Below are positions 45,863 through 62,214 of a DNA stretch of 64,000 nt, piece after piece (the first letter of the stretch is position 1; each line of letters starts with the position of its first letter). A program made the position numbers and the translations under genes. A model generated the notes under the pieces. That model saw only the letters and a list, made by a program, of their open reading frames with translations, was not told the DNA's origin and made no database searches. Where the stretch lies: NCBI RefSeq assembly GCF_023101685.1, contig NZ_CP082164.1:6324001-6388000 (forward strand). Reading direction: 5' to 3'. Source of the stretch: Bradyrhizobium sp. 186. Its GTDB lineage: Bacteria > Pseudomonadota > Alphaproteobacteria > Rhizobiales > Xanthobacteraceae.

Positions 45863-46009
45863 TCACCGCGCGCCGGCCTGATACGCCGCATACGTCCGCT
45901 TCAACCCATCGTGAAGCGAGGTCGTCGCGGGCCAGCCGAGCCTGGCGAAGCGGCTGACGTCTAGCAGCTTGCGCGGCGTACCGTCGGGACGCGAGGTGTC
46001 GAAACTGAT
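45863..46009 (-). pseudogene. fcl: C-terminal remnant of GDP-L-fucose synthase
   Basis: The minus-strand frame ending at the TGA 45863-45865 encodes 48 residues beginning ISFDTSRPDGTPRKLLDVSR and ending LKRTYAAYQAGAR. This is the C-terminal tail of GDP-L-fucose synthase (Fcl/WcaG), the NADPH epimerase-reductase of GDP-fucose synthesis. The homologous part stops abruptly at 46009, where a 32-bp repeat begins (46011). The rest of the gene is missing from the window. It marks a deletion or insertion breakpoint. Confidence 0.75.
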
Positions 46010-46010
46010 T

Positions 46011-46042
46011 GCGAGCCTCATGGTCGCTGAACGTTCGGCTCG
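46011..46042. repeat. Left 32-bp direct repeat of a candidate island
   Basis: GCGAGCCTCATGGTCGCTGA plus the next 12 bases match 54162-54193 in 29 of 32 positions, in the same orientation. It touches the truncated end of the fcl remnant. The repeat may mark a recombination or insertion boundary. Confidence 0.65.
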
Positions 46043-46177
46043 ATCGTACGCAACACCCGATTCTTGCGATTGGTCGAGCGGTCAATTCCCAGGCTCGCTG
46101 CTTAGTGGGGTCATCTCCAAAGAGAATGGCGCTCCGTAGATGCCAATCCTGACAGAAAACCTTGGCCAGACCCAAAG

Positions 46178-47149
46178 TCAGGCAGTCGCCACCGCCTCCC
46201 GTCGAGCAATCCTGCGCAACACCTCAGGGGGCACACCGAAGGCCCGGATGAACGCCCGCCGCATGCGTTCGCGGTCAGCAAAACCCGCTTCTTGCGCAAC
46301 GACGTTAACGGTGTGCCGCCCTTCCTCCATCATGAACCTGGCAGCTTCCAGCCGAAGTCGCTCGACGGCCTTCGCCGGAGACTGACCCGTCTCGGCCAGA
46401 AAAGAGCGGCTGAACTGACGAGGGCTGAGGTTGGCGGCGGCCGCAAGCTCCTCGATTGTGAGCGGATTCCGCAGATTTTGACGAATGTACGCCACGACCG
46501 ATTCGATGCGATCGGATTTCGGCGTCATGTCGAGAAGAGCGGAATGCTGTGTTTGTCCGCCCATCCGACGTTGATTAATGACCATAAGCTTGGCAGCGAC
46601 TTTCGCAACTTCGGGACCCAGGTCCTTATCGATCATCGCTAAGACAAGATCGATTCCTGCGGTCATTCCAGCCGACGTCCAGATCGGACCGTCATTGATG
46701 TAGATCCGGTCCTCCTCCATCCTGACATCCGGAAACCGAGCCTTGAAACTCGCCGCTTGAATCCAATGCGTCGTCGCACGGCGACCATCGAGAAGTCCGG
46801 CTTCAGCGAGAACAAACGCCCCGTTGCAAAATGAGGCAGTACGCCTCGACGCCCTGGCAGCTTTTTGCACAAAGGCGATCAAGTTTGCGCTTGATGGAGC
46901 CATTTCGAACGCGGTGATCGCACCGACAATAATTGTATCAAAAGCCGGATCGCCGAATGCTTCGGTGTCAACGGTCAAACCACAGGAAGATCGAACGGGA
47001 CCGCCATGTTCCGACAACAGATGGAGGTCATAGTGAAAATCGACCGGAGGTGGCTTCGCAAGTCCGAAACCCGTCATTTCGAATGCCGTCATGGGCGCAA
47101 GGCTCAGGAGCTGGAAGCCGTGCGGGACAATGAGACCTACCCGATGCAT
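46178..47149 (-). CDS. GlxA family transcriptional regulator (DJ-1/PfpI-like plus AraC domain)
   Basis: The 323-residue protein has an N-terminal DJ-1/PfpI-like domain (residues 1-175), with the nucleophile-elbow Cys108 in SFCNGAFVLAEAGLLDGR. A C-terminal AraC-type double helix-turn-helix follows (about 222-315: IEELAAAANLSPRQFSRSFL and VAQEAGFADRERMRRAF). GlxA regulators often sense small amides or amines and control nearby catabolic genes. It is a paralogue of the broken gene at 47311-48266. It probably regulates the divergent hydrolase-nitrilase genes. Confidence 0.9.
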   Translation of the reverse strand: MHRVGLIVPHGFQLLSLAPMTAFEMTGFGLAKPPPVDFHYDLHLLSEHGGPVRSSCGLTVDTEAFGDPAFDTIIVGAITAFEMAPSSANLIAFVQKAARASRRTASFCNGAFVLAEAGLLDGRRATTHWIQAASFKARFPDVRMEEDRIYINDGPIWTSAGMTAGIDLVLAMIDKDLGPEVAKVAAKLMVINQRRMGGQTQHSALLDMTPKSDRIESVVAYIRQNLRNPLTIEELAAAANLSPRQFSRSFLAETGQSPAKAVERLRLEAARFMMEEGRHTVNVVAQEAGFADRERMRRAFIRAFGVPPEVLRRIARREAVATA

Positions 47150-47310
47150 GGCTACTCCTGGTGTCCGAAATGCGGATGATAGTCCAGATCTGTATCATCT
47201 AGGAGGCACGCTCTCCCCGGATGCTCACGCGCGAGCCGGATGGGCCGAGAGCGCCGTTCGGCGCCACGTTAAGAGCCTGACTCAAAAGCCTACATCCTTG
47301 ACGGCCCAAG

Positions 47311-48266
47311 TCAGGCAGCCGCCACCGCCTCCCGTCGAGCGTTCCTGCGCAATATCTCCGGCGGCACGCCGAAGGTCCGATGGAACGCGCGACGCATGCG
47401 TTCTCGGTCCGCAAAGCCCGTTTCCTGCGCCACGACATTAACCGTGTGTCGTCCCTCTTCGATCATGAACCTGGCGGCCTCCAGCCGAAGCCGCTCCACA
47501 GCCTTTGCTGGTGACTGGCCGGTCTCACCCAGAAAGGTGCGGCTGAACTGGCGGGGGCTTAGGCTAGCGACCGCCGCAAGCTCCTCGATCGTGAGCGGCT
47601 TCCGCAAATTCTGACGGATGTACGCCAGGACCAATTCGATGCGATCGGACTTCGGCGTCATATCAAGGAGTGCGGAATGCTGTTTTTGTCCACCCATCCG
47701 ACGCTGGTTCATGACCAGAAGCCTGGCGACCATTTTCGCGGCTTCGGGACCAAGATCATTGTCGATCAACGCCAGAACGAGGTCGATCCCCGCGGTCATT
47801 CCCGCCGACGTCCAGACTGGACCGTCATTGATGAAGATCCGGTCCTCTTCCGCCCTGACATCCGGAAACCGAGCCCTGAAGCTAGCGGCATGGCCCAGTG
47901 CATCGTCGCACGTCGACCACTCAGAAGGCCCGCTTCAGCCAGCACAAACGCTCCGCTGCAGATCGAGGCGACCCGCCTCGACGCCTTGGCGGCTTCCTGC
48001 ACGAATGCGATCATAGTAGCATCGGAGGAAGGCATCTCCATCTCGGTGATCGAACCCACGATGACTGTGTCGAAGGCGGGATCTCCGAACGCCTCGGTTT
48101 CCAGCGTCATCCCTGAGGAAGACCGAACCGGACCGCCATGTTCTGACAACAAATGGATGTCGTAGCGCTGGTCGGCCGGGGGCAGATTGACGATTTCGAA
48201 TGCCGTCAGGGCCGCAAGGCTCATCAGTTGAAACCGTGGCGGCACGATGAAACCGACCCGATGCAT
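47311..48266 (-). pseudogene. Second GlxA family regulator, frameshifted
   Basis: The N-terminal frame (MHRVGFIVPPRFQLMSLAAL onward, start 48266) runs to RRATMHW. There one base is missing compared with the intact neighbour (about 47893-47898). The next frame resumes as AASFRARFPDV, then GMTAGIDLVLALIDNDLG and a complete AraC domain ending at 47311. The N-terminal domain retains its Cys (SICSGAF). Aligning both copies base by base shows 38 versus 39 nt in this stretch. The product would lack DNA-binding activity unless the C-terminal ORF (47311-47799) is translated alone. Confidence 0.82.
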
Positions 48267-48413
48267 TTTCGCTCCTGTGGCACGAATGGTGGCAAGAACG
48301 ACCTACGTCAGCCCCGCCGTAATCGCTAGAGTCCGAGCAACAAACCTCGCACTGGCTCCTCGCCGCTAAACGACGCGCATGTCAGCGCTTCCGTGAGGAA
48401 GAAAGGATGATGC

Positions 48414-49286
48414 ATGTATTCCGATCACGCCGCTTTCGTCGAGCATCGCATTCCCAGGGGAGAAGGAAAAGTCTACGCTCGAGATTATGTGGGTTCTGGC
48501 CCGGCTTTTGTGCTCATGCACGGATTCCCTGATAACCTGCATATCTGGGATGACCTGATCCCGTTCCTGGTTGCCAGCGGCCGGCGCGTGGTGACGTTCG
48601 ACTTCCTGGGCTTCGGCGCCTCGGACAAGCCCGCCGGCGCTGTCTATAGCTTTAAGCAGCAACTGGGCGACCTTGAAGCGGTCGTCGGGGGGCTGGGCCT
48701 GGGAAAGATCGTTCCGGTGGCTCACGATTCCTCCGGGATGGCGACGCTCAACTACGCGCTCGCCCATCCGGGAGGCGTCGACTCCGCGATCATGCTCAAC
48801 TCGGCCTATAGCGAGGACGCCACGGTTCTTTGGCCCGAGATGATCACGCTCTTTGCGACTCGGAGCATGCAGGCCCTTGCAATAGCGATCGCCCAGAGCC
48901 CCGAACAGTTTGGCTGGCTGCTGAAATGGCAGCAGAAGAAATTCCTGGACCCCTTGCCTGAGGCGCAAAGACCCCATTTCAGCGCGTTCATCGGTCCGCT
49001 GATCAGCGACAACTTCATCGCCCAACCCGGCGCCGGTCCTGCCTTCGTGCAGTTGGCGGCGGAATTCTTCGATGAACACGCCCGAAACGCCAAGCATCTG
49101 ACCGCGCTCAAGACGCTCGATATTCCGGTCAAGCTGATCTGGGGACAATACGACCCCTACTTCCCCGTCGCCATGGCCGAGCGGCGTCAATCTCAGCTCA
49201 AAAATGCGTCCCTCACCGTCATACCGGCGGGCCATTGGCTGCAGGCCGATGAGCCCGCGCAAGTAGCGAAGGCGATGCTGTCATGA
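48414..49286 (+). CDS. Alpha/beta hydrolase, haloalkane-dehalogenase/epoxide-hydrolase-like
   Basis: A 290-residue alpha/beta hydrolase. The oxyanion loop is HGFPDNLHIW. At the nucleophile elbow the sequence is AHDSSGMA: an Asp (D105) follows the His, as in dehalogenases and epoxide hydrolases, rather than the usual Ser. The acid is likely in GQYDPYFP and the base in GHWLQADEP. It may therefore cleave C-halogen or epoxide bonds. It starts the plus-strand gene run of the candidate island, and its stop overlaps the next gene's ATG. Confidence 0.85.
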   Translation: MYSDHAAFVEHRIPRGEGKVYARDYVGSGPAFVLMHGFPDNLHIWDDLIPFLVASGRRVVTFDFLGFGASDKPAGAVYSFKQQLGDLEAVVGGLGLGKIVPVAHDSSGMATLNYALAHPGGVDSAIMLNSAYSEDATVLWPEMITLFATRSMQALAIAIAQSPEQFGWLLKWQQKKFLDPLPEAQRPHFSAFIGPLISDNFIAQPGAGPAFVQLAAEFFDEHARNAKHLTALKTLDIPVKLIWGQYDPYFPVAMAERRQSQLKNASLTVIPAGHWLQADEPAQVAKAMLS

Positions 49287-49735
49287 GCCCGCGCGCGCTC
49301 GACAAGCTCACCGTTCGCGTACGCTTGACCAAGCTCGCTCGCGCCGTTGGCCTCGTCACGGTACTGGCGGTGATCAGCCCGACCGCTTCGTTCGCTCAGT
49401 CAGCGCCACCATCATCGAGCCTCGACGTCCCGACGACCAAATTGCTCGCGATCGGCACCTTCACAGCCAAAGGGTCGCCGGAGCGGTGGAAGCCGCTCCT
49501 GCCTGCCGAAGTGCGCGACACGGTACGGCTCTATCTCGCTGGGAAAATCGACCAGTGGTACCTCAAGCAGGACCAGAGCGGCGTCGTCTTCATGATGAAC
49601 GTCACCGATCCGAAGGAGGCTCTGGACCTGCTGGGCAAGTTTCCTTTCGGCCAGGCCGGGCTGATGGAGTTCCAGATCATCTCACTCGGCCCGATCGCCC
49701 CGCTCCGCGTGCTTTTGACTGAGCCTGCGAAGTAG
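49283..49735 (+). CDS. Exported muconolactone-isomerase/YCII-like small protein (paralogue 1)
   Basis: A 150-residue protein with a Sec signal peptide (hydrophobic AVGLVTVLAVISPTASFA, cleavage likely after Ala38), followed by a roughly 105-residue alpha+beta barrel domain. The domain has LLAIGTFTAKGSPERWKPLL and VVFMMNVTDPKEALDLLGKF, like muconolactone isomerase/YCII folds. It is the most divergent of three tandem paralogues and the only one with a signal. Function unknown. Its ATG overlaps the hydrolase stop. Confidence 0.75.
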   Translation: MSPRALDKLTVRVRLTKLARAVGLVTVLAVISPTASFAQSAPPSSSLDVPTTKLLAIGTFTAKGSPERWKPLLPAEVRDTVRLYLAGKIDQWYLKQDQSGVVFMMNVTDPKEALDLLGKFPFGQAGLMEFQIISLGPIAPLRVLLTEPAK

Positions 49736-49779
49736 TTGGCAGCTGCCAAGAACCGATTCAACAAAAGGAAACAGCAAAA

Positions 49780-50154
49780 ATGTCCGATAACAAGAACCCC
49801 CGCGTCCATGCGAAGATACTGCCCGCACTTGCCGCCGTCGTTGGTCCGACAACCAAGATCCTGGCGATCGGCTCGGTAACGGCCAAGGGAACGCCCGAGG
49901 CGATCGCCCCCGTCCTGCCCCACGAAGTCCGCGCAACGGTTCGCAACCATCTCGCCGGCAAGATCGAGCAATGGTTCTTCCAGACGGAGGGCTACGGCGT
50001 CGTGTTCATCGTGAACGCCACCAGTACCGCAGAGGCGCACGAACTCCTGGAAAAACTTCCTCTAGGCGTCGCCGGCATGATGGAATTCGAACTGATCGCT
50101 CTTGGGCCGCTCGCACCGCTCGCCATGCTCATCGCAGAACCTCCCCGTCCGTAA
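49780..50154 (+). CDS. Muconolactone-isomerase/YCII-like small protein (paralogue 2)
   Basis: A 124-residue cytoplasmic protein with the domain ILAIGSVTAKGTPEAIAPVL, IVNATSTAEAHELLEKLPLG and a C-terminal MEFELIALGPLAPLAML, matching dimeric alpha+beta barrel proteins. It is nearly identical to the next gene. The ATG follows AAAAGGAAACAG. Function unknown. Confidence 0.78.
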   Translation: MSDNKNPRVHAKILPALAAVVGPTTKILAIGSVTAKGTPEAIAPVLPHEVRATVRNHLAGKIEQWFFQTEGYGVVFIVNATSTAEAHELLEKLPLGVAGMMEFELIALGPLAPLAMLIAEPPRP

Positions 50155-50316
50155 TGCGACCCGCGGGCGTCGTCTTGAGTTTGGTAACAGTCCAGACTCG
50201 ATCGGACCGCTTTCGTAGCTTCGTGACCGCCCGATCGCTCCGCTTCGGGTGTTTTTTATGGATACCGCGAAGTCGCTTCCCCTCCCCACACCGATACGAC
50301 GAGAGCAAACAGCAAA

Positions 50317-50715
50317 ATGGCTGACGTCAAGAATCCGCGCGTCCATGCCGAGATATTGCCCGCGCTCGCTTCCGTTGTCGGTGCGATGACCAAGATCCTG
50401 GCAATCGGCTCGGTCACAGCGAAGGGTACACCCGGGGCGATCGCCTCGGTCCGACCCCATGAGGTTCGCGCGACGGTTCGCAATCATCTCGCCGGAAAAA
50501 TCGAGCAGTGGTTCTCCCAGACAGAGGGCCGCGGCGTTGTCTTCATCGTGAACGCCACCAGCACGGCAGAGGCGCACGAACTCCTGGAGAAGCTTCCACT
50601 CGGCGTCGCTGGAATGATGGAATTCGAGCTGATCGCTATCGGCCCGCTTGCGCCGCTCGCCATGCTCATCGCCGAACCTCCGCGTTCGCAATGCGACCCG
50701 CGGGCCTCGTTGTAA
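50317..50715 (+). CDS. Muconolactone-isomerase/YCII-like small protein (paralogue 3)
   Basis: A 132-residue copy of paralogue 2, with matching segments such as VRATVRNHLAGKIEQWFSQT. Its end differs: where paralogue 2 stops with TAA after the PP-R segment, this gene has CAA and reads into what was the 3' flank, adding SQCDPRASL before stopping. This shows a recent tandem duplication including flanking DNA, followed by stop-codon change in one copy. Function unknown. Confidence 0.78.
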   Translation: MADVKNPRVHAEILPALASVVGAMTKILAIGSVTAKGTPGAIASVRPHEVRATVRNHLAGKIEQWFSQTEGRGVVFIVNATSTAEAHELLEKLPLGVAGMMEFELIAIGPLAPLAMLIAEPPRSQCDPRASL

Positions 50716-50820
50716 CCTTGGTAGCGTTCACCAACCGATCGAAGCCGGCTGGGGCATGGTGAAGCCGCGTCGCGCGGACCAAAGATTACACTAACAACCC
50801 GCCAAGAAGGACCCGTCACG

Positions 50821-51831
50821 ATGCCTGTTGTCAAAGCCGCAGCCGTGCAGATCAGTCCCGTTCTCTACAGCCGGGACGGCACTGTTGGCAAAGTCGTCAA
50901 GAAGATTCTCGAGCTTGGGCGCCAAGGCGTCCAGTTCGCGACCTTCCCGGAAACGGTCATTCCCTACTACCCCTATTTTTCCTTCGTCGAAGCGCCCTAC
51001 CTGATGGGCGCGGAGCACTACAAGTTGCTCGATCAGGCGGTGACCGTGCCGTCTGACGCCACCAGGGCTATCGGCGAGGCCGCCAAGCAAGGCGGCATGG
51101 TCGTCTCCGTCGGCGTCAACGAGCGCGATGGCGGCACGATCTATAACGCGCAACTCCTGTTCGATGCTGACGGCACACTCATCCAGCACCGTCGCAAGAT
51201 TTCTCCGACCTATCATGAACGCATGGTCTGGGGTCAGGGCGATGGCTCTGGGCTGCGCTGTGTCGACAGCGCCGTAGGGCGCATCGGTCAACTCGCCTGC
51301 TGGGAGCATTACAACCCCCTAGCCCGCTACGCCTTGATGGCCGACGGCGAGCAGATTCACTCGGCTATGTATCCTGGCTCGTTCGCGGGCGACGGTTTCT
51401 CCGAGCAGATTTCAGTCAATATCCGCCAGCACGCACTGGAGGCCGGATGCTTCGTGGTTTGTGCGACCGCCTGGCTGAACGCTGAGCAGCAAGCCCAGAT
51501 CATGAAGGATACCGGCTGCAGCATCGAGCCGATTTCCAGCGGCTGCTTCACCACGATCGTCTCTCCAGAGAGCGCATTGATGGGCGCGCCGCTGCGATCC
51601 GGCGAAGGCGAGGTCATCGCCGATCTCGATTTCTGGGCCATCGACAAGCGCAAGCGTTTGATGGACTCGCGCGGTCACTACAGCCGACCGGAACTTCTCA
51701 GCCTGCTGATCGACCGCACGCCGAAGTCCCATGTGCATGAGCGTAGCGCGCATCCAGCGCCGGAATCCCTCGACCAGGCCGATCGGCCGGAAGAAGCGGG
51801 ATCGCGCCCGGCAATGGCGACAATCTCATGA
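50821..51831 (+). CDS. Nitrilase
   Basis: A 336-residue carbon-nitrogen hydrolase with the full catalytic set: Glu44 (TFPETVIP), Lys126 ([15 protein letters not shown], with Glu133) and Cys160 ([13 protein letters not shown]). CWEHYNPL is characteristic of true nitrilases that turn nitriles into acids plus ammonia. Its stop overlaps the start of the next hydrolase gene by 4 bp, so they are translationally coupled. Within the island it is the clearest catabolic enzyme. Nitrile substrate unknown. Confidence 0.92.
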
Positions 51832-52787
51832 CCTCACGCCGGCATCTCCTTCTCGCTGGCGGCGGTCTCGCCGCCACGCTCGGCCTCCCGAAAGCGGCGT
51901 TTACGGACGCGACGAAGGTCGCCAAGCCGCCAGCCTACCAACCTGCTCACAAAGGATCGAATCCAATGACGACTGCGACAATGAAAGACAGCGCGAAGAT
52001 CTACTTCAAGGACTGGGGCACTGGTCCAGTCGTGACGTTCTCTCACGGATGGCCGCTCACCGCAGACGCTTGGGACGCCCAGATGCTGTTCCTGGGCAAC
52101 AACGGCTATCGTGTTATCGCGCATGATCGTCGCAGCCATGGTCGATCGGATCAGACGTGGACCGGCAACGACATGGATACCTATGCCGACGATCTCGCCA
52201 CGCTACTCAAGACGCTCGACGTCAAGGGTGCGACGATGATCGGCCATTCGACCGGTGGAGGCGAGGTGGCGCGCTATATCGGCCGCCATGGCACATCGCG
52301 TGTATCGAAAGCAGTCCTAATTTCAGCGGTGCCTCCCCATATGGCGCAGACGCCCACCAACCCTAACAGCGCGCCGATGAGCGTGTTCGATGGCCTGCGC
52401 TCGAGCCTAATTGCCGATCGGGCGGGGTTCTTCAAGGAATTATCGATGCCGTTCTTTGGCTACAACCGTCCCAACGCGAAGGTTTCGCAGGGCCAGATCG
52501 AATCCTTCTGGCTTCAGGGCATGATGGGGAGCCTCCAAGGCGAGTATAATTGTATCAAGGCTTTCTCCGAGACCGATTTCACGGATGATCTCAGGAAGAT
52601 GACGATCCCAACCCTGCTCCTGCAGGGTAATGACGATCAGATCGTTCCTATCGACATCGCCTCCCGGCGTTCGGTGAAGGTCCTGCCAAACGCGAGCCTG
52701 AAGGAATATGCCGGTGCTCCACATGGCATGTGCGTCACCCACGGCGATCAAGTGAACGCAGACCTGCTGGCCTTCCTAAAGGGATGA
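51828..52787 (+). CDS. Alpha/beta hydrolase, chloroperoxidase/arylesterase-like
   Basis: The 319-residue frame opens with a possible Tat signal ([17 protein letters not shown]), then an alpha/beta hydrolase of the cofactor-free chloroperoxidase family. It has [16 protein letters not shown], catalytic Ser141 in [12 protein letters not shown], an Asp in [11 protein letters not shown] and His in [10 protein letters not shown]. An alternative start at 51966 ([14 protein letters not shown]) has a better ribosome binding site (AAAGGA) and would give a cytosolic protein. Which start is used decides the location. It is coupled to the nitrilase gene. Confidence 0.85.
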
Positions 52788-52873
52788 CGGGGACGAAGTC
52801 CTCCTGCCGATCGACCGGCCGCAAAGCGGATACGTCGCGCGGCAAAGCATATTCATTCTGAGTGAGGCGAAAG

Positions 52874-53812
52874 ATGAGCAAGGCACAACATGAACTTCCG
52901 ATTCTCGTGACCGGGGCGGCTGGACGGATCGGCTCGGTGGGCCGCTCCGTGACGGAGCTGCTTCTCGCCCGTGGGTTCCGGGTACGGGCGCAGGTTCGTG
53001 TGGACGACGACCGGGCCACAAGGTTGCGCGCGCTCGGTGCAGAAGTCGTGGTCGGCGATCTGCTCGATCTTATGGCGGTACATCGGGCGATCGAAGGGTG
53101 CGAACGTCTCTGCTTCGCAATGTCGGTCGCGCCGACCTATCTCGAAGCGGCTGTCAACGTCACCGTCGTCGCGAAGCACCATGGCGTAAAGGCGTTCGTC
53201 AATCTCTCCCAGATGACCGTCAACGAGATGGACATCTTCAATACGACCCCCAGCCCACAGCAAAAGCAGCATTGGTTGGCGGAGCAGATATTATCGTGGT
53301 CCGGGCTGCCGGTGGTGGAAGTACGACCAACGGCCTTCATGGAAGGGCTATTGCTTCAAACCGCGAAAACCGTCTCCATGCAGGACAAAATCATGGCGCC
53401 CTTTGGAAGGGGCAAGAACTCAGCCATCGCTGCAGCCGATGTCGCCCGGGTACTCGCCGAGATCTTGAGTGAGCCCGCCGAGCATATCGGCCAGACCTAC
53501 CATCTGACCGGCCCGGTTTCGCAGGACATGGACGCGGTTGCACGCGAGTTCTCGGCCGCGCTTGGTCGCACCATCTCGTACGTCAACGTTCCACTTGAGG
53601 TCATGAAGGGGCAACTCGCCGCCTTCGGAATGCCCCCGCATGTCGTTGCGCACGTGGCGACCATGGCGGGGCTACATCAGGACAACCGGTACGATCGGCT
53701 CAGCAATGATGTCGAAAGGCTGACTGGCATGGGTCCGATGAGCGTTCGGGAATTCGTGCAGAAGAACGCACATGCGTTCGCACCGGTCGCGCCTTCGAGC
53801 GCGACTGAATAA
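52874..53812 (+). CDS. NmrA/SDR-type NAD(P)-binding reductase
   Basis: The 312-residue protein begins MSKAQHELPILVTGAAGRIG, the GxxGxxG-type cofactor motif of atypical SDRs. It has AEVVVGDLLDLMAVHRAIEG and PVVEVRPTAFMEGLLL, as in NmrA/azoreductase-like proteins. It has no classical Tyr-x-x-x-Lys. It could be a quinone/azo reductase or a redox sensor. An upstream GTG at 52862 is possible, but the ATG at 52874 has GAGG in front. It closes the plus-strand gene run. Confidence 0.85.
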   Translation: MSKAQHELPILVTGAAGRIGSVGRSVTELLLARGFRVRAQVRVDDDRATRLRALGAEVVVGDLLDLMAVHRAIEGCERLCFAMSVAPTYLEAAVNVTVVAKHHGVKAFVNLSQMTVNEMDIFNTTPSPQQKQHWLAEQILSWSGLPVVEVRPTAFMEGLLLQTAKTVSMQDKIMAPFGRGKNSAIAAADVARVLAEILSEPAEHIGQTYHLTGPVSQDMDAVAREFSAALGRTISYVNVPLEVMKGQLAAFGMPPHVVAHVATMAGLHQDNRYDRLSNDVERLTGMGPMSVREFVQKNAHAFAPVAPSSATE

Positions 53813-53851
53813 ACGGCATCGTAGACAGGGGTACGGCTTCGCAAAGGAGCG

Positions 53852-53892
53852 TGGCTACGCGGCAGGATTTGAACCTGTGACCTTCAGTTATG
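53852..53892 (-). pseudogene. Degenerate tRNA 3' fragment, Met-type
   Basis: On the minus strand the sequence reads CATAACTGAAGGTCACAGG, then TTCAAATCCTGCCGCGTAG and a CCA end. This is the anticodon-to-3' half of a tRNA resembling initiator/Met types (CATAAC, GGTTCAAATCC). No 5' half pairs with it, and one T-stem pair is broken. It is best read as an integration scar or decayed tRNA copy. Confidence 0.5.
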
Positions 53893-54017
53893 GGTCGATG
53901 TCCCGCGAGTCTAGTTTAGGCGATTGGTCAAAACCAAGCGGCTCAGCTTCAATTCCGGGACCGAGATGCAGATCGCCCAGAATGAAATCCGAGCCTCTCG
54001 CTAAGTCTTTGAAAGAT

Positions 54018-54061
54018 TGGAGCGGGTGAAGGGAATCGAACCCTCGTATTCAGCTTGGAAG
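54018..54061 (-). pseudogene. 3' half of tRNA-Gly(TCC), likely attachment-site remnant
   Basis: On the minus strand the sequence reads CTTCCAAGCTGAATACGAGG, followed by GTTCGATTCCCTTCACCCGC and TCCA. This is the intact 3' portion of alphaproteobacterial tRNA-Gly(TCC), from the anticodon to the encoded CCA. The 5' half is absent. Islands that integrate at tRNA 3' ends leave exactly such fragments at their far end. Confidence 0.7.
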
Positions 54062-54089
54062 TCGGGAAGTACTGTAGCATTTTCAGCGA

Positions 54090-54156
54090 CCATTCTGACA
54101 TTTTCGACATTTTTGGCCCCTTGAGATCGTTACAGAATTTCTCGTTGTCAGAATGG
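54090..54156. repeat. 11-bp inverted repeat near the island end
   Basis: CCATTCTGACA (54090-54100) is the exact complement of TGTCAGAATGG (54146-54156). Just outside, TTCAGCGACCAT (54082-54093) and ATGGTCGCAGAA (54171-54182) also pair with one mismatch, so two nested arms surround a 45-bp AT-richer core. The pattern could form a cruciform or be a recombinase site. Confidence 0.6.
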
Positions 54157-54161
54157 CGATA

Positions 54162-54193
54162 GCGAGCCCCATGGTCGCAGAACATTCGGCTCG
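54162..54193. repeat. Right 32-bp direct repeat of a candidate island
   Basis: GCGAGCCCCATGGTCGCAGA plus the next 12 bases match 46011-46042 in 29 of 32 positions, same orientation, 8.15 kb apart. It overlaps the outer arm of the nested inverted repeat. Confidence 0.65.
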
Positions 54194-54352
54194 GGCGCGA
54201 GGAAGGTTCAAATCCCGGAGATGCAACCACCGATGCCGACATTCACTTCACGTCGCGATCCGATCAATGATCCTTACGGAGCGCCCGCTGCGTCCCGAAC
54301 GCACTTCTAAGGTCCTTGATGCTCCTGGCTAGGTTGCATGCATCGGCGACAC

Positions 54353-55366
54353 TCAATCCTCATCGTCGAGCGCGAGAACCGCGAAGCTCGCAAGCCAATG
54401 CTCGCCCATGTAGTCGCCGGTAATATGGGGAAGACCCGCGGCCAGATGATCCCGCGCGGCGTCGAGGGCAACCGCGCGCCGATCGTCGCTTGCCGGCAAG
54501 GCCTCGCCGAGAGAGCGCCAGCACCAGGCCCTGCTGAGATTGAGTCCGTCGAGATGAGCGATCTTGCCATCGGTACGATCGGCCACCGTCGCGGGCCGGA
54601 ACAACGTTGCCGGCTGCTTCTCGGATAGAAGCGGCAGAAACCGATCGAACCAGGGCAAGAACTCGTCTGGCGGCAACAGGCGCCGCATACACTCGGCCTC
54701 GATCAGGGCCGAGGACTGGAAATCGTCGCCGCTCGGCTCGCCCCAGGCCGGGCAGTCGCGATCCTCGCCATACCAGCGCAAGCCGGTTTCGCGCAGCAGC
54801 CTGGCGAGCCCGTCATCGCCCTTGATGCCGGCGTAGTCCGCCGCCATCCGCAGGCCAAACGCCGTGTTGAAATGTGTTCCGACACGCACGGGATAAAGCG
54901 ACAGCGGCAGGAAGTCGCGAAAGCGCTGCGCGATGACTTCGGACAGCGGCGCGAGACTGCGGCCCCAACGACCGTCGGGCTGGAGTGCCAGCTCGGTCGC
55001 CAACTTCAGCAGCCAGGCCCAGCCATATGGCCGCTTGAAGCCGCGGGCAGTCGGGCGGGCAAAGTAAGCGCACTCTGAGGCGACCTTGTCGGGGACGAAC
55101 TGCGCATCGAACAGCGCACGAATATCGGACGCCGCTGCGAGATCCGGAAAGCGGCGCAACAGTCGCGCCAGCATCCAGTAACTGTGGACGCAGGAATGCC
55201 AGTCATAGCTGCCGTAGAAGATCGGATGCAGCTCGCTCGGCGTGCGGGCATCCGCCGGTTCAGCCAGCGCGTGGTCGACATTGTTCGGATATTCGCGCCC
55301 GACATGGCCGAGCGCGATACCAGCGAAATGCGCGGCGTGCTCGCGGGTGAGACGGGACGTGGTCAT
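54353..55366 (-). CDS. DUF2891 family protein
   Basis: A 337-residue soluble protein. The conserved parts are the N-terminal YPNNVDHALAEPAD with ELHPIFYGSYDWHSCVHSYW, and the C-terminal LDGLNLSRAWCWRSL and GDYMGEHWLASFAVLAL. This matches DUF2891, an (alpha/alpha) barrel-like family without known activity; the His/Asp/Trp-rich motifs suggest a glycosidase-like or lyase-like site. It overlaps the transporter gene by 4 bp (ATGA), so both form one operon under the divergent LysR. Confidence 0.88.
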   Translation of the reverse strand: MTTSRLTREHAAHFAGIALGHVGREYPNNVDHALAEPADARTPSELHPIFYGSYDWHSCVHSYWMLARLLRRFPDLAAASDIRALFDAQFVPDKVASECAYFARPTARGFKRPYGWAWLLKLATELALQPDGRWGRSLAPLSEVIAQRFRDFLPLSLYPVRVGTHFNTAFGLRMAADYAGIKGDDGLARLLRETGLRWYGEDRDCPAWGEPSGDDFQSSALIEAECMRRLLPPDEFLPWFDRFLPLLSEKQPATLFRPATVADRTDGKIAHLDGLNLSRAWCWRSLGEALPASDDRRAVALDAARDHLAAGLPHITGDYMGEHWLASFAVLALDDED

Positions 55367-56286
55367 GCTCTGGCCTTTCGTTTGTCACGGCCGATCAACG
55401 TCTCGATCAGGCGCGGCAGGATATAAATCGGCAATTGCGTCGCCGCAAAGTATAGAGCCATGCGTGGCGAGGCGGCAGCGCCGAGCGCCGACCAGACCAG
55501 CCCGACATTGCGATTGCCGAGAATGAGCCCGACAGTCAGCCGCTGGGCAAAAGTCCCCGGCAGCAACGCGGCGCCCGCAACTTGAAGGGCAATATTGCAG
55601 GCGAAAGCAAGCACGAGGCAGAGCATTGCGGCCTGCAAATCCGCCGCGATCTGCGCACGGATGCCGGTCATGGTCGCCACCGCAAAGACGAGAAGCGCCG
55701 TGACGATGACCCCGTCGACAACGCCGCCATGGGCAGCCAGCACTGGCGCCGCATGCCGGCGGAGCAGAAAAGCGACGCCCTCGGCGCTGCCGATCAATAG
55801 CGCCAGCCGCAGCGCAAGTTCGAGTGCGCTGATCTCAAGCCCCCCGAACCAGCCTGCCAGAAGTGGCACGGTGACCGGAGCCAGCACCATGGACAACACG
55901 GTCACGACGAGCGGCACCGCGCCGTCGAGCCCGAGCATGCGCGCCACCGCCGCCGTGCCGCTCGACGGCGGCGCCGAAACGGCGAGCACGATCGCAAGCG
56001 CGAGTTCCGGAGCCAGACCGAGGGCATGACCGGCAACACCGATCGTCAACGGACAGGCCACCATGACAACGGCCGGCAGGAGCACGGACAGCGACGGCCG
56101 ACGCAGCGCGGCGACGACCGCCTCGCCATCGATCCGCAACAGCGTCCCCAGCACGATCAGGAAGATCGTTGTCGGCATCAACGGGCGAGCCAGATCCGCG
56201 AGCGCCGGACATACAAGCCCGAGCAGCACGCCAAACGCCAGCAATGTCGGTCCGCACGGGATGAGGCGCAGGAGTGAGGATCGCAT
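55363..56286 (-). CDS. BASS-type (bile acid:sodium symporter-like) membrane transporter
   Basis: The 307-residue protein has 8 to 10 hydrophobic segments with two short repeats typical of SBF/BASS carriers: APPSSGTAAVARMLGLDG in the first half and GLILGNRNVGLVWSALG (GNRN crossing) in the second. It may import an organic anion by sodium symport. Start MRSSLLRL at 56286 is preferred to an ATG 17 codons earlier that runs into the LysR promoter region. Translationally coupled to the DUF2891 gene. Confidence 0.78.
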   Translation of the reverse strand: MRSSLLRLIPCGPTLLAFGVLLGLVCPALADLARPLMPTTIFLIVLGTLLRIDGEAVVAALRRPSLSVLLPAVVMVACPLTIGVAGHALGLAPELALAIVLAVSAPPSSGTAAVARMLGLDGAVPLVVTVLSMVLAPVTVPLLAGWFGGLEISALELALRLALLIGSAEGVAFLLRRHAAPVLAAHGGVVDGVIVTALLVFAVATMTGIRAQIAADLQAAMLCLVLAFACNIALQVAGAALLPGTFAQRLTVGLILGNRNVGLVWSALGAAASPRMALYFAATQLPIYILPRLIETLIGRDKRKARA

Positions 56287-56357
56287 ACGCCTCGTCCGAT
56301 CAGGTCTACCGCCCCAATAGACCACTCTCCGCAACATTCTTGAAATCGATTTTTACT

Positions 56358-57290
56358 ATGCCTATCATTTCTCTAATGAATTTAGCTTCCGTCGATCTCA
56401 ACCTCCTGGTCGCTTTCGAGGCGCTGATGGAGGAGCGCAACGTGACCCGCGCCGGCCAGCGCGTCGGCCTGGCGCAACCGTCCATGAGCAGCGTCTTGAT
56501 GCGCCTACGGGCGCTGTTTGGCGACGATCTGTTCGTGCGCTCGGCCTCCGGCATGCAACCCACGGCCAAGGCGCTGGCGCTGGTCCGGCCGATCAACGAC
56601 GCGCTCGGGCAGATCAGGGACGTGCTTGAGCCTGGATCAGGCTTCGATCCCGCAACAGCCCGCCGCCGCCTGTCCATTGCGGTGACCGACTACGGCGACC
56701 TCGTCGTGGTGCCGCCACTGGTCACGGCGCTGCGGCGGGAGGCGCCTCATATCGATTTGGTGGTGCGTCCCATCATCGACACGGCTTTGAGCGTCGCGAG
56801 CCTCGAACACGGCGATATCGACGCATTGATCGGCGGCCATCTTCCCGCCTCCGCGCGCATCACCCGGAGCACCCTGTTCGAGGAACATTTCGTCTGCATT
56901 CGTGATGGCAAGCGCGCCAGGCAGAAGGCTGGCCTCTCCAAAGACGACTACACGCGTCTTCCGCACGTGCTGTTCTCGTCGGCCGGCGGCGACGGAATTC
57001 CCGGCGCGATCGACACCATGCTGGCCCGGCATGGGCGCAAACGGCGCACAGCGATCACACTCGCCCATGTCGTTGCGGTACCGTTTGCCGTCGCCGGCAC
57101 CGATCTCGTGGCGACCATGGCCGAACGCATCGCCCGCCGCTTCGCCGCAGCCGCCGGTGTGTCCGTCGTTCCGCTTCCTTACGATGTGAAGGCGTTCACC
57201 ATCGACCTCCTCCACACGCGCCGCGCCATGGCCGACCCGGCGCTGCGCTGGTTCATCGAGCTGGTCAATCGTGTCTGCAGGGAACTCTGA
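56358..57290 (+). CDS. LysR family transcriptional regulator
   Basis: A LysR protein of about 310 residues with an N-terminal winged helix (SVDLNLLVAFEALMEERNVT, LAQPSMSSVLMRLRALFGDDLF) and a periplasmic-binding-like effector domain. The start could be 56358 (MPIISLM) or 56376 (MNLASVD); neither has a strong ribosome site. It is divergent from the BASS-DUF2891 operon, with a gap of about 70 bp that must contain both promoters, so it very likely controls that operon. Confidence 0.9.
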   Translation: MPIISLMNLASVDLNLLVAFEALMEERNVTRAGQRVGLAQPSMSSVLMRLRALFGDDLFVRSASGMQPTAKALALVRPINDALGQIRDVLEPGSGFDPATARRRLSIAVTDYGDLVVVPPLVTALRREAPHIDLVVRPIIDTALSVASLEHGDIDALIGGHLPASARITRSTLFEEHFVCIRDGKRARQKAGLSKDDYTRLPHVLFSSAGGDGIPGAIDTMLARHGRKRRTAITLAHVVAVPFAVAGTDLVATMAERIARRFAAAAGVSVVPLPYDVKAFTIDLLHTRRAMADPALRWFIELVNRVCREL

Positions 57291-57456
57291 CAAGATCGTT
57301 CCAACAAAGGGCGATTTAGCAGACGTCGTCACTCTTGATTTGCCTGATTTGCCGAAGAAGAGAATATCGCACTTGTCTGACTATCAACGCATTGGGCCGT
57401 AGAACCAATCGCAGTCCTGCGACGTTGATCGACCAATCATAACGGGGGGCGGCACG

Positions 57457-58809
57457 ATGGGTCCGGAGGGGCGGCACGCGATTGTCATAGGCGGGGGCGC
57501 CAGCGGCGTCCTGCTGGCTTTTCAATTGTTGAAGACCAACCCACCCCATTTCCGCGTCACGCTGATCGAGAAACGGCCCGAGATCGGCCGTGGCCTTGCC
57601 TATCATGCAGGCAATCCCGAACATCTGCTCAATGTCCGCGTGACGAACATGAGCGCGCTGCCCGACGATCCCGAACACTTCTGGAACTGGTTGTGTGCAC
57701 GGCCCGGCGGGCCGCTGTGTCCCGATCCCTACTGCTTCGTACCCCGGCAGACCTACGGGGACTACCTCGCCGATCTGATCGCGCCGCTGATGTCGACCGA
57801 CGCGACGCGAGGCCTGACCATCGTGCGCGGCGAGTGCGCGGCCATCCGCGAAAATCCGTCCGACGTCGCAGTCACCCTCGCGGACGGAACTTGCATCACT
57901 GGCAGTACGGCCATTCTCGCGACCGGCCATGATGCCGCAGCTCCGTTGCTGGCCGGCCATGCCGAACCCTGGGCCTCACCCGCCGACGCCGGCATCGATA
58001 CGAACGCGACGGTGCTGATCCTGGGGACAGGCCTGTCCATGGTCGACTACGTGTTGTCACTGCTCCGACACGGACATCAGGGGCGGATCGTCGCCATGTC
58101 GCGGCGGGGCCTGCTGCCGAGAGCTCATCGACGCGTCGATCCGATGCGCTTCGCCAAGAGTGAGATTCCGTTCGGCGTCGAAATCAGGCCGCTGTTGCGC
58201 TGGTTTCGTCGTCGCGTCGAAATGCATGTCGCCGACGGTGGCGACTGGCGCGGTGCAATCGACGCGATCAGGCCGTTCACCCAGCGGCTTTGGCATGAGC
58301 TTCCGTTGAGTTCCAAGCGCCGATTCCTGGAACACGCCCGCGCCTGGTGGGATGTCCATCGCCACCGCACCGCACCGGAGGTCGAAGCTCGCATTGCGGA
58401 GGCCCTTACTATGGGGCGGCTGACGATCATCGCCGGCAAGCTCGCCAACGTCGCGCCGAACCCCGGCGGCGCCCTGGCCCGCTATCGCAGGCGCGGCCAA
58501 GACGAGATGTCCGAGCTGCAAGTTGGAGCCATCGTCGACTGCACGGGTATCGTTCGCGATCCCGGCGCCAGCAACAACCCGGCCGTACGTAGTCTGCTCG
58601 ACGACGGCCTTGCCCGCATCGATCCGCTGCGGATCGGCATCGACGTCACGCGCGAGTGCGCGATCGTCAATCGTGATGGATCGCCATCGCGACGTCTCTA
58701 CGCCGTCGGCCCGCTCACGCGCGCCGCATTTTGGGAGATCGTCGCCGTTCCTGATATCCGCCAGCAATGCGCGGAGCTGGCGGCGCGACTCGGCAACCAT
58801 TCGCTTTAG
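57457..58809 (+). CDS. FAD/NAD(P)-binding oxidoreductase
   Basis: A 450-residue flavoprotein. FAD motif IGGGASGVLLAFQLL begins at residue 11, and a second nucleotide site lies in ILGTGLSMVDYVLSLL near residue 190. PVTRQ-type CFVPRQTYGDYLADLI and GRGLAYHAGNPEHLLNVRVT are typical of the FAD_NAD_binding_9 family (ornithine-hydroxylase/HpnW-like). The actual substrate is unknown. No close operon partner; a convergent VOC gene follows 40 bp later. Confidence 0.85.
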   Translation: MGPEGRHAIVIGGGASGVLLAFQLLKTNPPHFRVTLIEKRPEIGRGLAYHAGNPEHLLNVRVTNMSALPDDPEHFWNWLCARPGGPLCPDPYCFVPRQTYGDYLADLIAPLMSTDATRGLTIVRGECAAIRENPSDVAVTLADGTCITGSTAILATGHDAAAPLLAGHAEPWASPADAGIDTNATVLILGTGLSMVDYVLSLLRHGHQGRIVAMSRRGLLPRAHRRVDPMRFAKSEIPFGVEIRPLLRWFRRRVEMHVADGGDWRGAIDAIRPFTQRLWHELPLSSKRRFLEHARAWWDVHRHRTAPEVEARIAEALTMGRLTIIAGKLANVAPNPGGALARYRRRGQDEMSELQVGAIVDCTGIVRDPGASNNPAVRSLLDDGLARIDPLRIGIDVTRECAIVNRDGSPSRRLYAVGPLTRAAFWEIVAVPDIRQQCAELAARLGNHSL

Positions 58810-58849
58810 ATTCACGGAAACGGTCTGCCAAATTCGCTGTAAGCGCTCT

Positions 58850-59212
58850 CTATACCCGTTCAATCACCTGTGCGATCTCCCAGACATGACCGGAAGGGTC
58901 TGCAAAGGACGCGGTTCGCCTTCCCCAGGGGCGATCAACCGGCCCATTGAGCAGATCGACACCGATCTCCCGAAGGGTCGTGCACACTTGATCGACGTCA
59001 CGAACCCTGATGGTCAACAAGACCCGCGCTCCTGCAGAAGACTTCCCAACGGGCAACGGCTCAACGAGCGGAGGCGCCTGAGACACGTCGAGAAGATTGA
59101 TCAGCAGTCCGCCAAATCTAAGCACGGATGAGACCGCATCTTCCCAGACGACTTCAGGTGCGAAGACCCTGGCGTAAAAGGCTTTCGACGACGCGATCTC
59201 GTCGACGAACAA
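58850..59212 (-). CDS. VOC (glyoxalase/bleomycin-resistance) family protein
   Basis: A 120-residue VOC-fold protein: FVDEIASSKAFYARVFAPEV, then VLLTIRVRDVDQVCTTLREI and TASFADPSGHVWEIAQ with the usual His-Glu metal-ligand region. The true start is unclear: the frame continues upstream as LPNEVEVIT but finds no ATG before a stop, so a TTG (59212) or CTG start, or a small frameshift, must be assumed. Substrate unknown. Confidence 0.7.
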   Translation of the reverse strand: MFVDEIASSKAFYARVFAPEVVWEDAVSSVLRFGGLLINLLDVSQAPPLVEPLPVGKSSAGARVLLTIRVRDVDQVCTTLREIGVDLLNGPVDRPWGRRTASFADPSGHVWEIAQVIERV

Positions 59213-59384
59213 GGTAATGACTTCAACCTCGTTCGGCAGACCATGGCCATGTCGCCCTGCTCCTCACCGTTGTCGCGCCGGCTTGCGTGAACGAGACAAG
59301 CCGCTGGCCGCCATATGTCACGATGTCAGGGCGTGGCGCAATTCCAGCGAACCGGGCCATCGGCCCGGCTCAGGAGCCACGCTC

Positions 59385-60167
59385 CTAGTTGAACAGGTCC
59401 GGTTCGGCCTCGGTGATCCAGTCCCATAACGGCTGGAAGCTGAAATAGCCGCCCTTGTGCGTGCCTACCTGTCGGGAGGTCAGGCTCGCGATCTCATGCG
59501 GGATCGGCTTTGGCGCACCGGCGGCTTCGGCGAGCAGCTGGGCGCGCGCTGCATTGTCCATGGCGATGTACCACCAGGCGGCGGCCTCGATGGTCGGTCC
59601 CACCGTGAGCAGGCCGTGATTTTGCAGGATCGCGGCCTTCTTCGAACCCAACGCCTGCGCGATCTTGCGGCCCTCTTCAGCCTCCAGCACGACGCCGGAG
59701 AAGGGATCGAACAGCACGTGGTCCTCGTAGAAGGCGCAGGAGTCCTGCGTCAGTGGATCGAGCAGTCGGCCGAGCGCCGACCAGGCCTTGCCGTAAGTCG
59801 AATGGGTGTGGGCGGCCGCGATCACTTCGGGATGCGCAGCATGGATCGCCGAATGAATCACGAAGCCGGCCTGGTTGATCGGCTTGTCGCCGATCAGGAT
59901 GTTGCCGTCGTGATCGACGAGCTGGAGGTCGGACACCTTGATCTGGCTGAAATGCTTCGACAGCGGGTTGATCCAGAAGCGTTCGGGGAACTCCGGATCG
60001 CGCACGGTGACGTGGCCTGCGAGGCCCTGATCGAAGCCATAGCGCGAGAACAGGCGGAACGTCGCGGCAAGCCGCTGCTTGCGGTGCAGCCGTTCCTCTT
60101 CGAACGAAGCGGCCGGCGTACGTTCGACCAGCGAATATTTCCTGGGCTTCGCGATGAACTTGTTCAT
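59385..60167 (-). CDS. Class II aldolase/adducin family protein
   Basis: The 260-residue protein starts MNKFIAKPRKYSLVERTPAA after AGGAGCC. Zn-binding and catalytic elements are HTHSTYGKAWSALG, QNHGLLTVG, and RFWINPLSKHFSQIKVSDL. Family members cleave phosphorylated sugars or act as dehydratases or decarboxylases. It lies 13 bp after a D-2-hydroxyacid dehydrogenase on the same strand, so the two probably act in sequence on a sugar acid. Confidence 0.88.
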   Translation of the reverse strand: MNKFIAKPRKYSLVERTPAASFEEERLHRKQRLAATFRLFSRYGFDQGLAGHVTVRDPEFPERFWINPLSKHFSQIKVSDLQLVDHDGNILIGDKPINQAGFVIHSAIHAAHPEVIAAAHTHSTYGKAWSALGRLLDPLTQDSCAFYEDHVLFDPFSGVVLEAEEGRKIAQALGSKKAAILQNHGLLTVGPTIEAAAWWYIAMDNAARAQLLAEAAGAPKPIPHEIASLTSRQVGTHKGGYFSFQPLWDWITEAEPDLFN

Positions 60168-60180
60168 TGTTGTGGCTCCT

Positions 60181-61173
60181 TTAGTATTCGAGGTTCCTGT
60201 CGAAGACGTCGGCCAGCGGCACGCCATGCGCATAGGCGTCGAGGTTGACCAGCGTCTTATCGGCCAGACGCTTGACGTCCTCTCCTCCCGTCCACGAGAC
60301 GTGCGGGGTCAGGACGACCTTGGGATGGCTATAGATCGGATCACCATCCAGCGGCGGCTCCGGATCCGTCACATCGAGCGTGGCGCCCGCAATTTTTCCG
60401 TCGTCGAGCGCTTGCAGCAGGGCGGCCTGGTCGATGATCCGGCCGCGCGCGACATTGATCAGATGCAGCGATGTCTTGGCTCGTGCGAGCACGTCGGCGT
60501 TGATCAGACGGGCCGTCTTCGTCGTCGCCGGCAGCGCAAGGACGAGATGGTCGGAGACTTCGACCAGTTGCTCGATGCTGTCGACGGGCTGGATGCCCGG
60601 AAGGAGATATGGCCAGGCCGAGCGTCGCAAAACGCTGATGTTGACACCGAACGGCTTGACGCGCTCGACGACGGCGCGGCCGATGGCGCCGAAGCCCGCG
60701 ATGCCGACCGTCTTGCCACCGAGTGAGCCGAGCTGGGTAATCTTCCATTGCTCGCGGCTGCGCGGCCGGATGTCGTGTATCCGCTTTTCGAAGCCCAGGA
60801 TTGCCGCGAGGACATATTCTGCGATCGGATCGGCCGAGATGCCACGGCCGACCGTGACCACGGGACCGTCGAGCAGCCACGCCGGAAAGAAATCGACTCC
60901 CGTCGATGCGGTCTGGATCCAGCGTAGGCCGAACGGCCAACCCGCAGGCTTGTCCGCGGGCGCCTTATGCCAGCCCGCCAGCGGCCGCGTCAGCAGCACG
61001 TCGGCCTCGGGAGTGACCTCCCACGACGCGCGATCGGCGGGATGATCGATGATCATCGGGCGCGACCAGTGATCGACCAGCGCGGCACGAATTTCCGCAC
61101 CCAGCTGATTGACGATGATCGGCGATCGCACGCTGGTGGATGCATGCCTGCTTTCAATTCGGGGAGTGTTCAT
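60181..61173 (-). CDS. D-isomer-specific 2-hydroxyacid dehydrogenase
   Basis: A 330-residue enzyme with the NAD motif GIAGFGAIGRAVVERV, the catalytic Arg in LINVARGRIIDQAAL, the Glu in DVTDPEPPLDGDP and His in LTPHVSWTGG. It would reduce a 2-keto acid such as glyoxylate or hydroxypyruvate. The start has a poor ribosome binding site. It heads a two-gene unit with the class II aldolase. Confidence 0.9.
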   Translation of the reverse strand: MNTPRIESRHASTSVRSPIIVNQLGAEIRAALVDHWSRPMIIDHPADRASWEVTPEADVLLTRPLAGWHKAPADKPAGWPFGLRWIQTASTGVDFFPAWLLDGPVVTVGRGISADPIAEYVLAAILGFEKRIHDIRPRSREQWKITQLGSLGGKTVGIAGFGAIGRAVVERVKPFGVNISVLRRSAWPYLLPGIQPVDSIEQLVEVSDHLVLALPATTKTARLINADVLARAKTSLHLINVARGRIIDQAALLQALDDGKIAGATLDVTDPEPPLDGDPIYSHPKVVLTPHVSWTGGEDVKRLADKTLVNLDAYAHGVPLADVFDRNLEY

Positions 61174-61388
61174 GTCACGCGTTCATGATCGCAACGAGGT
61201 CGACATGCTAGGCGGTTGCAGCAAGATAATCTTTTCAAAGATGGCTGGCCTCTTGCAACAACAGGACGATGCGCCTCGGCAAGGCATAAGAATTTATCTC
61301 TGGTGGCGGCACGCCGACCGCAATCGCGTTCGCGGCTTGACATTGCCATGAGCGATACGATCTTGAGCAACAATCAGGGAGGCTACCC

Positions 61389-61847
61389 ATGAAGATACTC
61401 AACATCCTGACGCGGCGTTATTTGCCACTGGGTGAACTGGATGCGGCCGTCGCTTTCTATGAGGCTCTGATAGGTCAAAAGGCACGCCTTCGCTTCGATT
61501 ATCCCGAGTACGACCTGAGACTGGCGCAGGTTGCATCAATCCTGTTCATCGCCGGAACCGAACAGAGCCTGAAGCGGTTCACCGCAACTCACATGACGTT
61601 CATGGTCGAGGATATTGATGCCTTCGCCGCCCACCTTCCGACGGTTGGTGCGATGGTGTTGGAAGCGCCCAAGCTGGCGCCGACCGGTCGAAACATGCTG
61701 GTGCGCCATCCAGATCAGACACTCGTCGAATATGTCGAGCATCGCGACAAACATCCGGCGGACGTACTGCCGTCGAGCCGGCCGCGTAGGACGACTGTTG
61801 CGAGCTGCCGCAGCCAGAGCGATTTGGTGGTTATTTCCTCCCGATGA
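61389..61847 (+). CDS. VOC (glyoxalase-like) family protein
   Basis: A 152-residue protein with one VOC module: LPLGELDAAVAFYEALIGQK, FTATHMTFMVEDIDAFAAHL and MLVRHPDQTLVEYVEHRDK. The last 35 residues are basic and not VOC-like; the 3' end overlaps the convergent ferredoxin gene by 17 bp, so the tail may have been added by loss of an earlier stop. Substrate unknown. Confidence 0.78.
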   Translation: MKILNILTRRYLPLGELDAAVAFYEALIGQKARLRFDYPEYDLRLAQVASILFIAGTEQSLKRFTATHMTFMVEDIDAFAAHLPTVGAMVLEAPKLAPTGRNMLVRHPDQTLVEYVEHRDKHPADVLPSSRPRRTTVASCRSQSDLVVISSR

Positions 61848-62214
61848 TGTCAAGCGGCTCCGCTTTCGCCTGTATCGCAGCCTCACCGGCGCGACGGAAT
61901 ACGGTTTCCATCAGCCACTGCTCGTTTGGAAAGCGATCGGACCATTCGTCCCAGCCGGAATGCTTGCGGTATTGGCCGAGACGGCCGGAGGCCACCACGT
62001 CCTCCGCATTCACAGCGACGCGTCGGTCGCAATCCGGCGCCACGTAGATCGCATCCGCCTGGCAATAGAGCTCGCACATGAAGCATGTCTGGCAATCCTC
62101 GACACGGGCGAGAACCGGCCGGCCGTCTTGCCCGGGATCGATTACATTGGCTGGACAGACCTCGATGCATATCCCGCAATCCGTACAGCGGTCCGCGACG
62201 ATGAGCTCGATCAT
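61831..62214 (-). CDS. 2x[4Fe-4S] ferredoxin-type reductase subunit
   Basis: A 127-residue protein with two cluster motifs: Cys10, 13, 16, 20 (CTDCGICIEVCP) and Cys41, 44, 47, 51 (CQTCFMCELYC), followed by a 70-residue tail. This resembles the beta subunit of adenylylsulfate-reductase-like pairs. Its ATG overlaps the flavoprotein stop by 4 bp. It should carry electrons to or from the partner flavoprotein. Confidence 0.88.
   Translation of the reverse strand: MIELIVADRCTDCGICIEVCPANVIDPGQDGRPVLARVEDCQTCFMCELYCQADAIYVAPDCDRRVAVNAEDVVASGRLGQYRKHSGWDEWSDRFPNEQWLMETVFRRAGEAAIQAKAEPLDIIGRK

Follow-up and report, generated by a model that had tools for sequence, protein, structure and literature searches.

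In a 64,000-nucleotide stretch of the Bradyrhizobium sp. 186 genome (the window, G000:C1:6324001-6388000; the genome, G000, comprises 10.77 Mb on two contigs), a nitrilase/hydrolase gene cassette lies between about 46 and 54 kb, and comparison with 265 genus genomes (labelled with G-numbers) indicates that this locus very probably contains two integrative elements stacked, by tandem accretion, at one tRNA-Gly(TCC) gene. An initial annotation had proposed an acquired 8-kb genomic island with 32-bp direct repeats as its ends. By sequence comparison the block is acquired DNA, because the same genes occur on a Rhizobium plasmid (pRCCGE531d of Rhizobium sp. CCGE531) and in two other genus genomes (G111 and G036), and it is absent from the corresponding sites of ten relatives; its proposed extent does not hold, as the 8 kb form the left part of a ~281-kb insertion. 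The island borders are thereby corrected, and a short repeat at the apparent ends of an island can be a scar of stacking, not an attachment site.

The right end of the block holds the attachment junction between the two stacked elements. The 3' halves of a tRNA-Gly(TCC) and of a Met-type tRNA, noted there earlier, were both matched to tRNAs of the same genome. The tRNA-Gly fragment (54018..54061, minus strand) agrees at all of its 44 nt with the 3' end of the genome's intact tRNA-Gly(TCC) gene, which was found 272.8 kb to the right (G000:C1:6650855-6650928), and the tRNA pieces are, as first proposed, integration footprints; adjacent to the fragment, 53978..54017 represents DNA from downstream of tRNA-Gly(TCC) that is kept beside the intact gene in some relatives. 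Directly after the fragment comes the arm (54062..54158, plus strand), a ~97-bp conserved end of tRNA-Gly elements that recurs across the genus and carries an 11-bp inverted repeat (54090-54100 and 54146-54156) mostly kept in the five other genomes aligned. The region 54062-54194 matched at least 49 of the 265 genus genomes, its own included (E ≤ 0.001; a lower bound, with at most three candidates scored per genome), most matches spanning the arm and not the entire repeat. Among 30 arm loci inspected (a single locus from each genome, that of the window included), the arm stood directly after a tRNA-Gly 3' fragment in 27, with fragment lengths of at least 42 nt in 25 loci and of 15 and 27 nt in two. 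This recurrence argues for stacking, as does the presence of several arms per genome, which stacking predicts (three on three contigs in G116; three within about 25 kb in G234). With Rfam, the right end gave weak matches below the cut-off, the best placed aligning a T-arm-like part of the tmRNA model with the tRNA-Gly fragment. Separately, the DNA right after the repeat (54194-54303) contains a tRNA-like GGTTCAAATCC and GCAACCA, and related sequence occurs after the cassette in G036, G183 and G234 and after the arm in G083.

The 32-bp repeat itself was reproduced at its exact coordinates, with copies at 46011..46042 and 54162..54193 on the same (plus) strand and three differences between them. 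A pattern accepting both copies with up to three further mismatches found these two places only, both in the window and in the 10.77-Mb genome, and had no match in 100 dinucleotide shuffles of the window. The repeat core was present in 4 of the 265 genus genomes (up to three mismatches, a pattern that misses copies diverged like the window's left one), with the arm adjoining every time; the tRNA-Gly fragment there is 44-45 nt long in all but G042, where it measures 15 nt. With two copies in the genome and so few carriers in the genus, a common genomic repeat is ruled out. Because the core always adjoins the tRNA-Gly-linked arm, the right copy is, from these alignments, the inner part of an element end, at its inner edge beside the arm. 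The exception is the left copy, which has neither tRNA fragment nor arm and is fused to a remnant of fcl (the gene for GDP-L-fucose synthase); we read it as what is left of a tRNA-Gly element end that was probably joined to fcl through a deletion. An ATCGT shortly 3' of the left copy is common to the corresponding junction in G111 and not to the right copy, and the bases after the left copy are closer to the G111 junction than the right copy is, which again favours stacking.

G111 carries a sibling island, in the order tRNA-Gly fragment, end sequence, one repeat copy, cassette, initiator tRNA-Met fragment and intact tRNA-Gly, so that both ends are bounded by tRNA-Gly, whereas the left end in the window is truncated. 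This layout is likely the ancestral form, and stacking is supported because here the cassette stands alone at the same tRNA-Gly with a fragment, an arm and a single repeat copy. The same comparison makes it very improbable that an 8-kb island inserted into fcl with the 32-bp repeats as its own ends, whether as att sites or as a target duplication. The repeat is real, it occurs in the genome at these two places only and its left copy abuts the fcl break, all as such an insertion would have it, but the G111 island has one copy in the 20 kb examined (next best match, 11 mismatches), the cassette is found without the repeat on pRCCGE531d (best match in the stretch, 12-13 mismatches) and in G036 (11-13 mismatches), the right copy adjoins the tRNA-Gly-linked arm, and G111 has the island yet a full-length fcl. 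The examined stretch of the Rhizobium ruizarguesonis plasmid pRlX4, which holds part of the cassette, likewise contained no repeat. The two copies, from these comparisons, are not island borders and are best read as a leftover of stacking.

The borders of the cassette itself lie inside the repeats. Its left-end sequence (46043..46101, plus strand, beginning ACGCAACACCCGATTCTTGCG) recurs where the cassette starts in G111 and pRCCGE531d; in both, the cassette match begins at 46048 and common sequence runs from 46043. It also occurs without the cassette, on Allorhizobium pAtS4c and, partly, on R. leguminosarum plasmids, and neither the G036 nor the pRlX4 copy has it at its left end; the G036 match begins at 46179 and has, past its right end, 30 bp of the left end in inverted orientation, and the pRlX4 match begins at 46175 and has no right part. 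On the right, 53864..53892 (minus strand) matches one of the genome's own tRNA-Met sequences over its 3' half, at a score reached by 0 of 300 shuffles; we take the matched tRNA, judging from its sequence, to be of the initiator type. The tRNA-Met piece at the cassette right end measures 42 bp in G111, 50 bp on pRCCGE531d and 29 bp in the window, with a 10-bp match in G036, and the cassette right end in G036, G183 and G234 falls at 53850-53864. The right edge of the cassette is, on this alignment, the tRNA-Met relic near 53853-53864, the probable original attachment end, and not the repeat, and the cassette was probably once a tRNA-Met-targeting unit.

At uninterrupted sites the two sides of the insertion lie close together. 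The flank on the left (near 45850-46009) and that on the right (the intact tRNA-Gly and beyond) are separated by 219-4924 bp in ten relatives and by 280,846 bp in G000, and stacking is favoured because of this difference. Seven of the ten came from 14 loci chosen among genomes in which the fcl remnant had matched, and G195, G129 and G057 were chosen through matches in a separate search; at the tRNA-Gly site of G057 the flanks are 3.5 kb apart. Of the marks of a tRNA-targeting island, the insertion shows an intact tRNA gene at one end, the duplicated 3' part of that gene at the other and absence from relatives whose flanks are conserved. In six genomes (G111, G007, G083, G060, G240 and G181) a fragment with its arm and an intact tRNA-Gly enclose 3.7-9.9 kb, an arrangement that also argues for stacking.

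The left junction lies at the fcl remnant (45863..46010, minus strand), which encodes C-terminal residues 266-312 of 314. Homology covers 45872-46009, with 138 bp aligned at 87% identity to the 945-bp fcl of G008 (positions 10-147 counted from its 3' end); it stops at 46009 and the repeat starts at 46011, within two bases of the break, so that the earlier description of this point as a breakpoint is upheld. Across the 14 relatives tested, all taken from genomes matching the fcl remnant, fcl is full length in 11, G111 among them, and it is truncated at other points in G221 (aligned to position 200) and G011/G012 (155). The spot, by these alignments, is one that has been rearranged repeatedly, since the truncation points differ among these genomes, and it could be supposed that fcl broke independently, at a rearrangement-prone place, before the island came. 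The other truncations, with no cassette found in the stretches examined around them, fit that supposition; we nevertheless regard it as unlikely, as the break in the window joins the stump of an element end directly, and one deletion would explain both this and the missing left fragment and arm. A loss of fcl function, also considered, is unsupported, the genome having two other full-length matches and a split one.

In the order of events that we infer, an older island carrying the nitrilase/hydrolase cassette would have integrated into the 3' end of tRNA-Gly, leaving a tRNA-Gly 3' fragment, the 97-bp arm and the repeat region on the fcl side and restoring tRNA-Gly on the opposite side. A second element of the same specificity would then have entered the restored gene; its arm and repeat region would be the present 54062-54193, and its far end the intact tRNA-Gly 272.8 kb off, beside an open reading frame (ORF) resembling a diverged tyrosine recombinase, the presumed agent. 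A later deletion, ending immediately ahead of the repeat, would have removed the greater part of fcl together with the left arm and the tRNA-Gly fragment originally on that side, and the two 32-bp copies would represent corresponding inner parts of the two element ends.

The ORF in question (415 aa, G000:C1:6649535-6650782) ends 72 bp before the intact tRNA-Gly and belongs to a family of 1,116 proteins (E ≤ 0.001). R248, R358-H359 and Y390 are invariant in the 32 members aligned, with W or H preceding the Tyr, a set of residues that we take to be the tyrosine-recombinase pattern, and the protein is here taken as a putative diverged tyrosine recombinase. UniRef gives one relative the name 'Tyr recombinase domain', and the named relatives are mostly from Bradyrhizobium among the best 120 of the 1,116. 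Remnants of the same family adjoin a tRNA-Gly fragment in G181 and G199, which is the junction that stacking predicts. As a side observation on this family (noted at L073:9536-10783), the same 120 best matches are mostly called 'hypothetical' where named and have no precomputed Pfam domains. The cassette, as the initial annotation had it, brings no integrase of its own: a scan of eight block proteins revealed no integrase family, and the genome's 40 PF00589 matches (E ≤ 0.001) all fall outside the block and its vicinity, and outside the 281 kb as a whole. The sibling island of G111 had no match to the recombinase-like family (other integrases and transfer genes were not searched for there).

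Several observations weigh against stacking or against parts of it. Three of the 30 arm loci have no tRNA-Gly fragment, and in 7 of the 14 loci there is no intact tRNA-Gly(TCC) in the stretch taken, the right flank not being tested in those seven, one of which ended at a contig end. The fcl deletion is proposed from comparison with relatives. For the putative recombinase, PF00589 was matched by 5 of the 32 family members, weakly (best E 0.00014); the 415-aa ORF alone had no match in Pfam, NCBIfam, PHROGs or PDB sequences; and hhalign of the family against five individual integrases encoded by this genome was uninformative (E 0.027-0.71), the integrases doing no better, save weakly one or two, than eight non-integrase controls (E 0.17-0.7). 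The family profile searched against PDB sequences found no recombinase, its one match being a hydroxylase at E 1.1. The second segment (54194..64000 in the window, running on to G000:C1:6650855) adds further points: its ~273 kb hold near-identical repeated copies of insertion sequences (ISs), two kinds of them with transposase genes, its first ~58 kb also occur elsewhere, circularly permuted, in G194 and G198, and there is no VirB4/TrbE match in it. Because of the IS copies and the permuted ~58 kb, the segment may have arrived in more than one step and not as a single element. As to conjugation genes, PF03135 (VirB4/TrbE) matches lie solely at C2:283860 and C1:9047238, outside the island, which in this respect differs from an integrative and conjugative element (ICE).

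These features of the second segment bear on another explanation, that, although the cassette is indeed a tRNA-Gly island, the ~273 kb reached their place by chromosomal rearrangement (IS-mediated translocations or inversions) splitting the locus. In keeping with this, the ~58-kb stretch (54352 to extended coordinate 112205, G000:C1:6378352-6436205) is located elsewhere in two relatives and its ends adjoin each other in G194, G198 and G008; its first ~7-10 kb are also found elsewhere in G195 and G011; three near-identical ~1.9-kb copies are present, one with a transposase by the tRNA-Gly; and GC content from 54062 to the tRNA-Gly is 60-67% per 10-kb step, near that of the flanks and scarcely different from the backbone. 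We nonetheless hold such an origin to be distinctly unlikely, as the segment has a tRNA-Gly attachment junction at each border, one beside the arm and one beside the recombinase-like ORF, and the span from fragment and arm to intact tRNA-Gly repeats the layout of the small islands in other genomes. In G000 the end of a DUF2891 gene (~160 bp) is present at both ends of the ~58-kb stretch, 79% identical. Judged by eye, a 165-aa ORF at the DUF2891 junction (L090:12048-12545, minus strand) resembles a chimera of an ABC transporter ATPase start and a DUF2891 protein end. The three ~1.9-kb copies lie at extended coordinates 126217, 214765 and 327039, and at the third a DDE transposase gene is situated just past the intact tRNA-Gly.

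The stacking proposed here is of a known kind and would be an ordinary route of gene gain in soil bacteria. Tandem accretion of integrative elements and of cis-mobilizable elements (CIMEs) is described in general terms in PMC5704250, in which, as would hold here, a decayed element without an integrase keeps its attachment ends and a later element enters the restored target end. Unlike CIME accretion as described there, the outer end of the older element has been lost, by deletion on the stacking reading, and the present case is known from sequence alone. Stacking at tRNA genes (trnK, trnQ and trnI) is also reported for B. japonicum USDA6, whose islands likewise run from a tRNA gene to a duplicate of its 3' portion (PMC3927601); none of the 15 islands in Table 5 of that paper lies at tRNA-Gly, nor does 'trnG' appear in its main text. 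According to the same source, sequence similarity between the islands of two strains is confined to one pair; the arm described here, by contrast, is common to several species. In another rhizobium, the 87.6-kb symbiosis ICE of Azorhizobium caulinodans sits at a gly-tRNA gene (PMC8954435), the same class of target tRNA (the sequences were not compared), unlike which the G000 island has no VirB4/TrbE match. Mesorhizobium ICEs are described as adjoining tRNA-Gly and tRNA-Met genes (PMC8627217). In the open-access text searched, no paper on Bradyrhizobium tRNA-Gly islands was found.

More broadly, and only tentatively, Bradyrhizobium may harbour genus-wide tRNA-Gly(TCC)-specific elements that share the arm, with a diverged recombinase acting in trans on integrase-less islands and with cargo switching between tRNA-Met and tRNA-Gly by end capture, a scheme that we consider conceivable and somewhat less than probable. 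If it were true, standard profiles would mostly miss the diverged tyrosine-recombinase family that serves the arm elements, and small integrase-less cargo islands would persist through the recombinase of a resident or incoming relative. The 97-bp arm also provides a sequence handle for finding integrase-less tRNA-Gly islands in the genus.

The genes of the cassette begin with a GlxA-type regulator (46178..47149, minus strand; DJ-1/PfpI and AraC HTH by Pfam) and a second GlxA-type regulator (47311..48266, minus strand), which ORF comparison shows to be frameshifted in the window and to be one 318-aa ORF in G111 and G036. On the plus strand follow an alpha/beta hydrolase (48414..49286; Pfam), three small paralogous ORFs in tandem (49283-49735, 49780-50154 and 50317-50715) with no Pfam or NCBIfam family above cut-off, a Nit6803-like nitrilase (50821..51831; 487.3 bits, just below the 502.6 cut-off), a second alpha/beta hydrolase (51828..52787; Pfam) and an NmrA-like NAD(P)-binding protein (52862..53812; Pfam). 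Because a nitrilase, two hydrolases, an NmrA-like protein and the three paralogs are accompanied by GlxA-type regulators, the predicted cargo suggests that a nitrile or similar compound is broken down or detoxified under regulation. Gene content agrees among G111, G036 and pRCCGE531d but for a few differences: the plasmid carries a single GlxA-type regulator and two small paralogs instead of three, and in G111 and G036 the NmrA gene is frame-split. When the cassette was traced through named genomes by its nitrilase, none of the best 80 of at least 560 loci held all eight proteins. In tblastn searches with the small paralogs, relatives share a locus with a related nitrilase in 11 of the best 80 loci.

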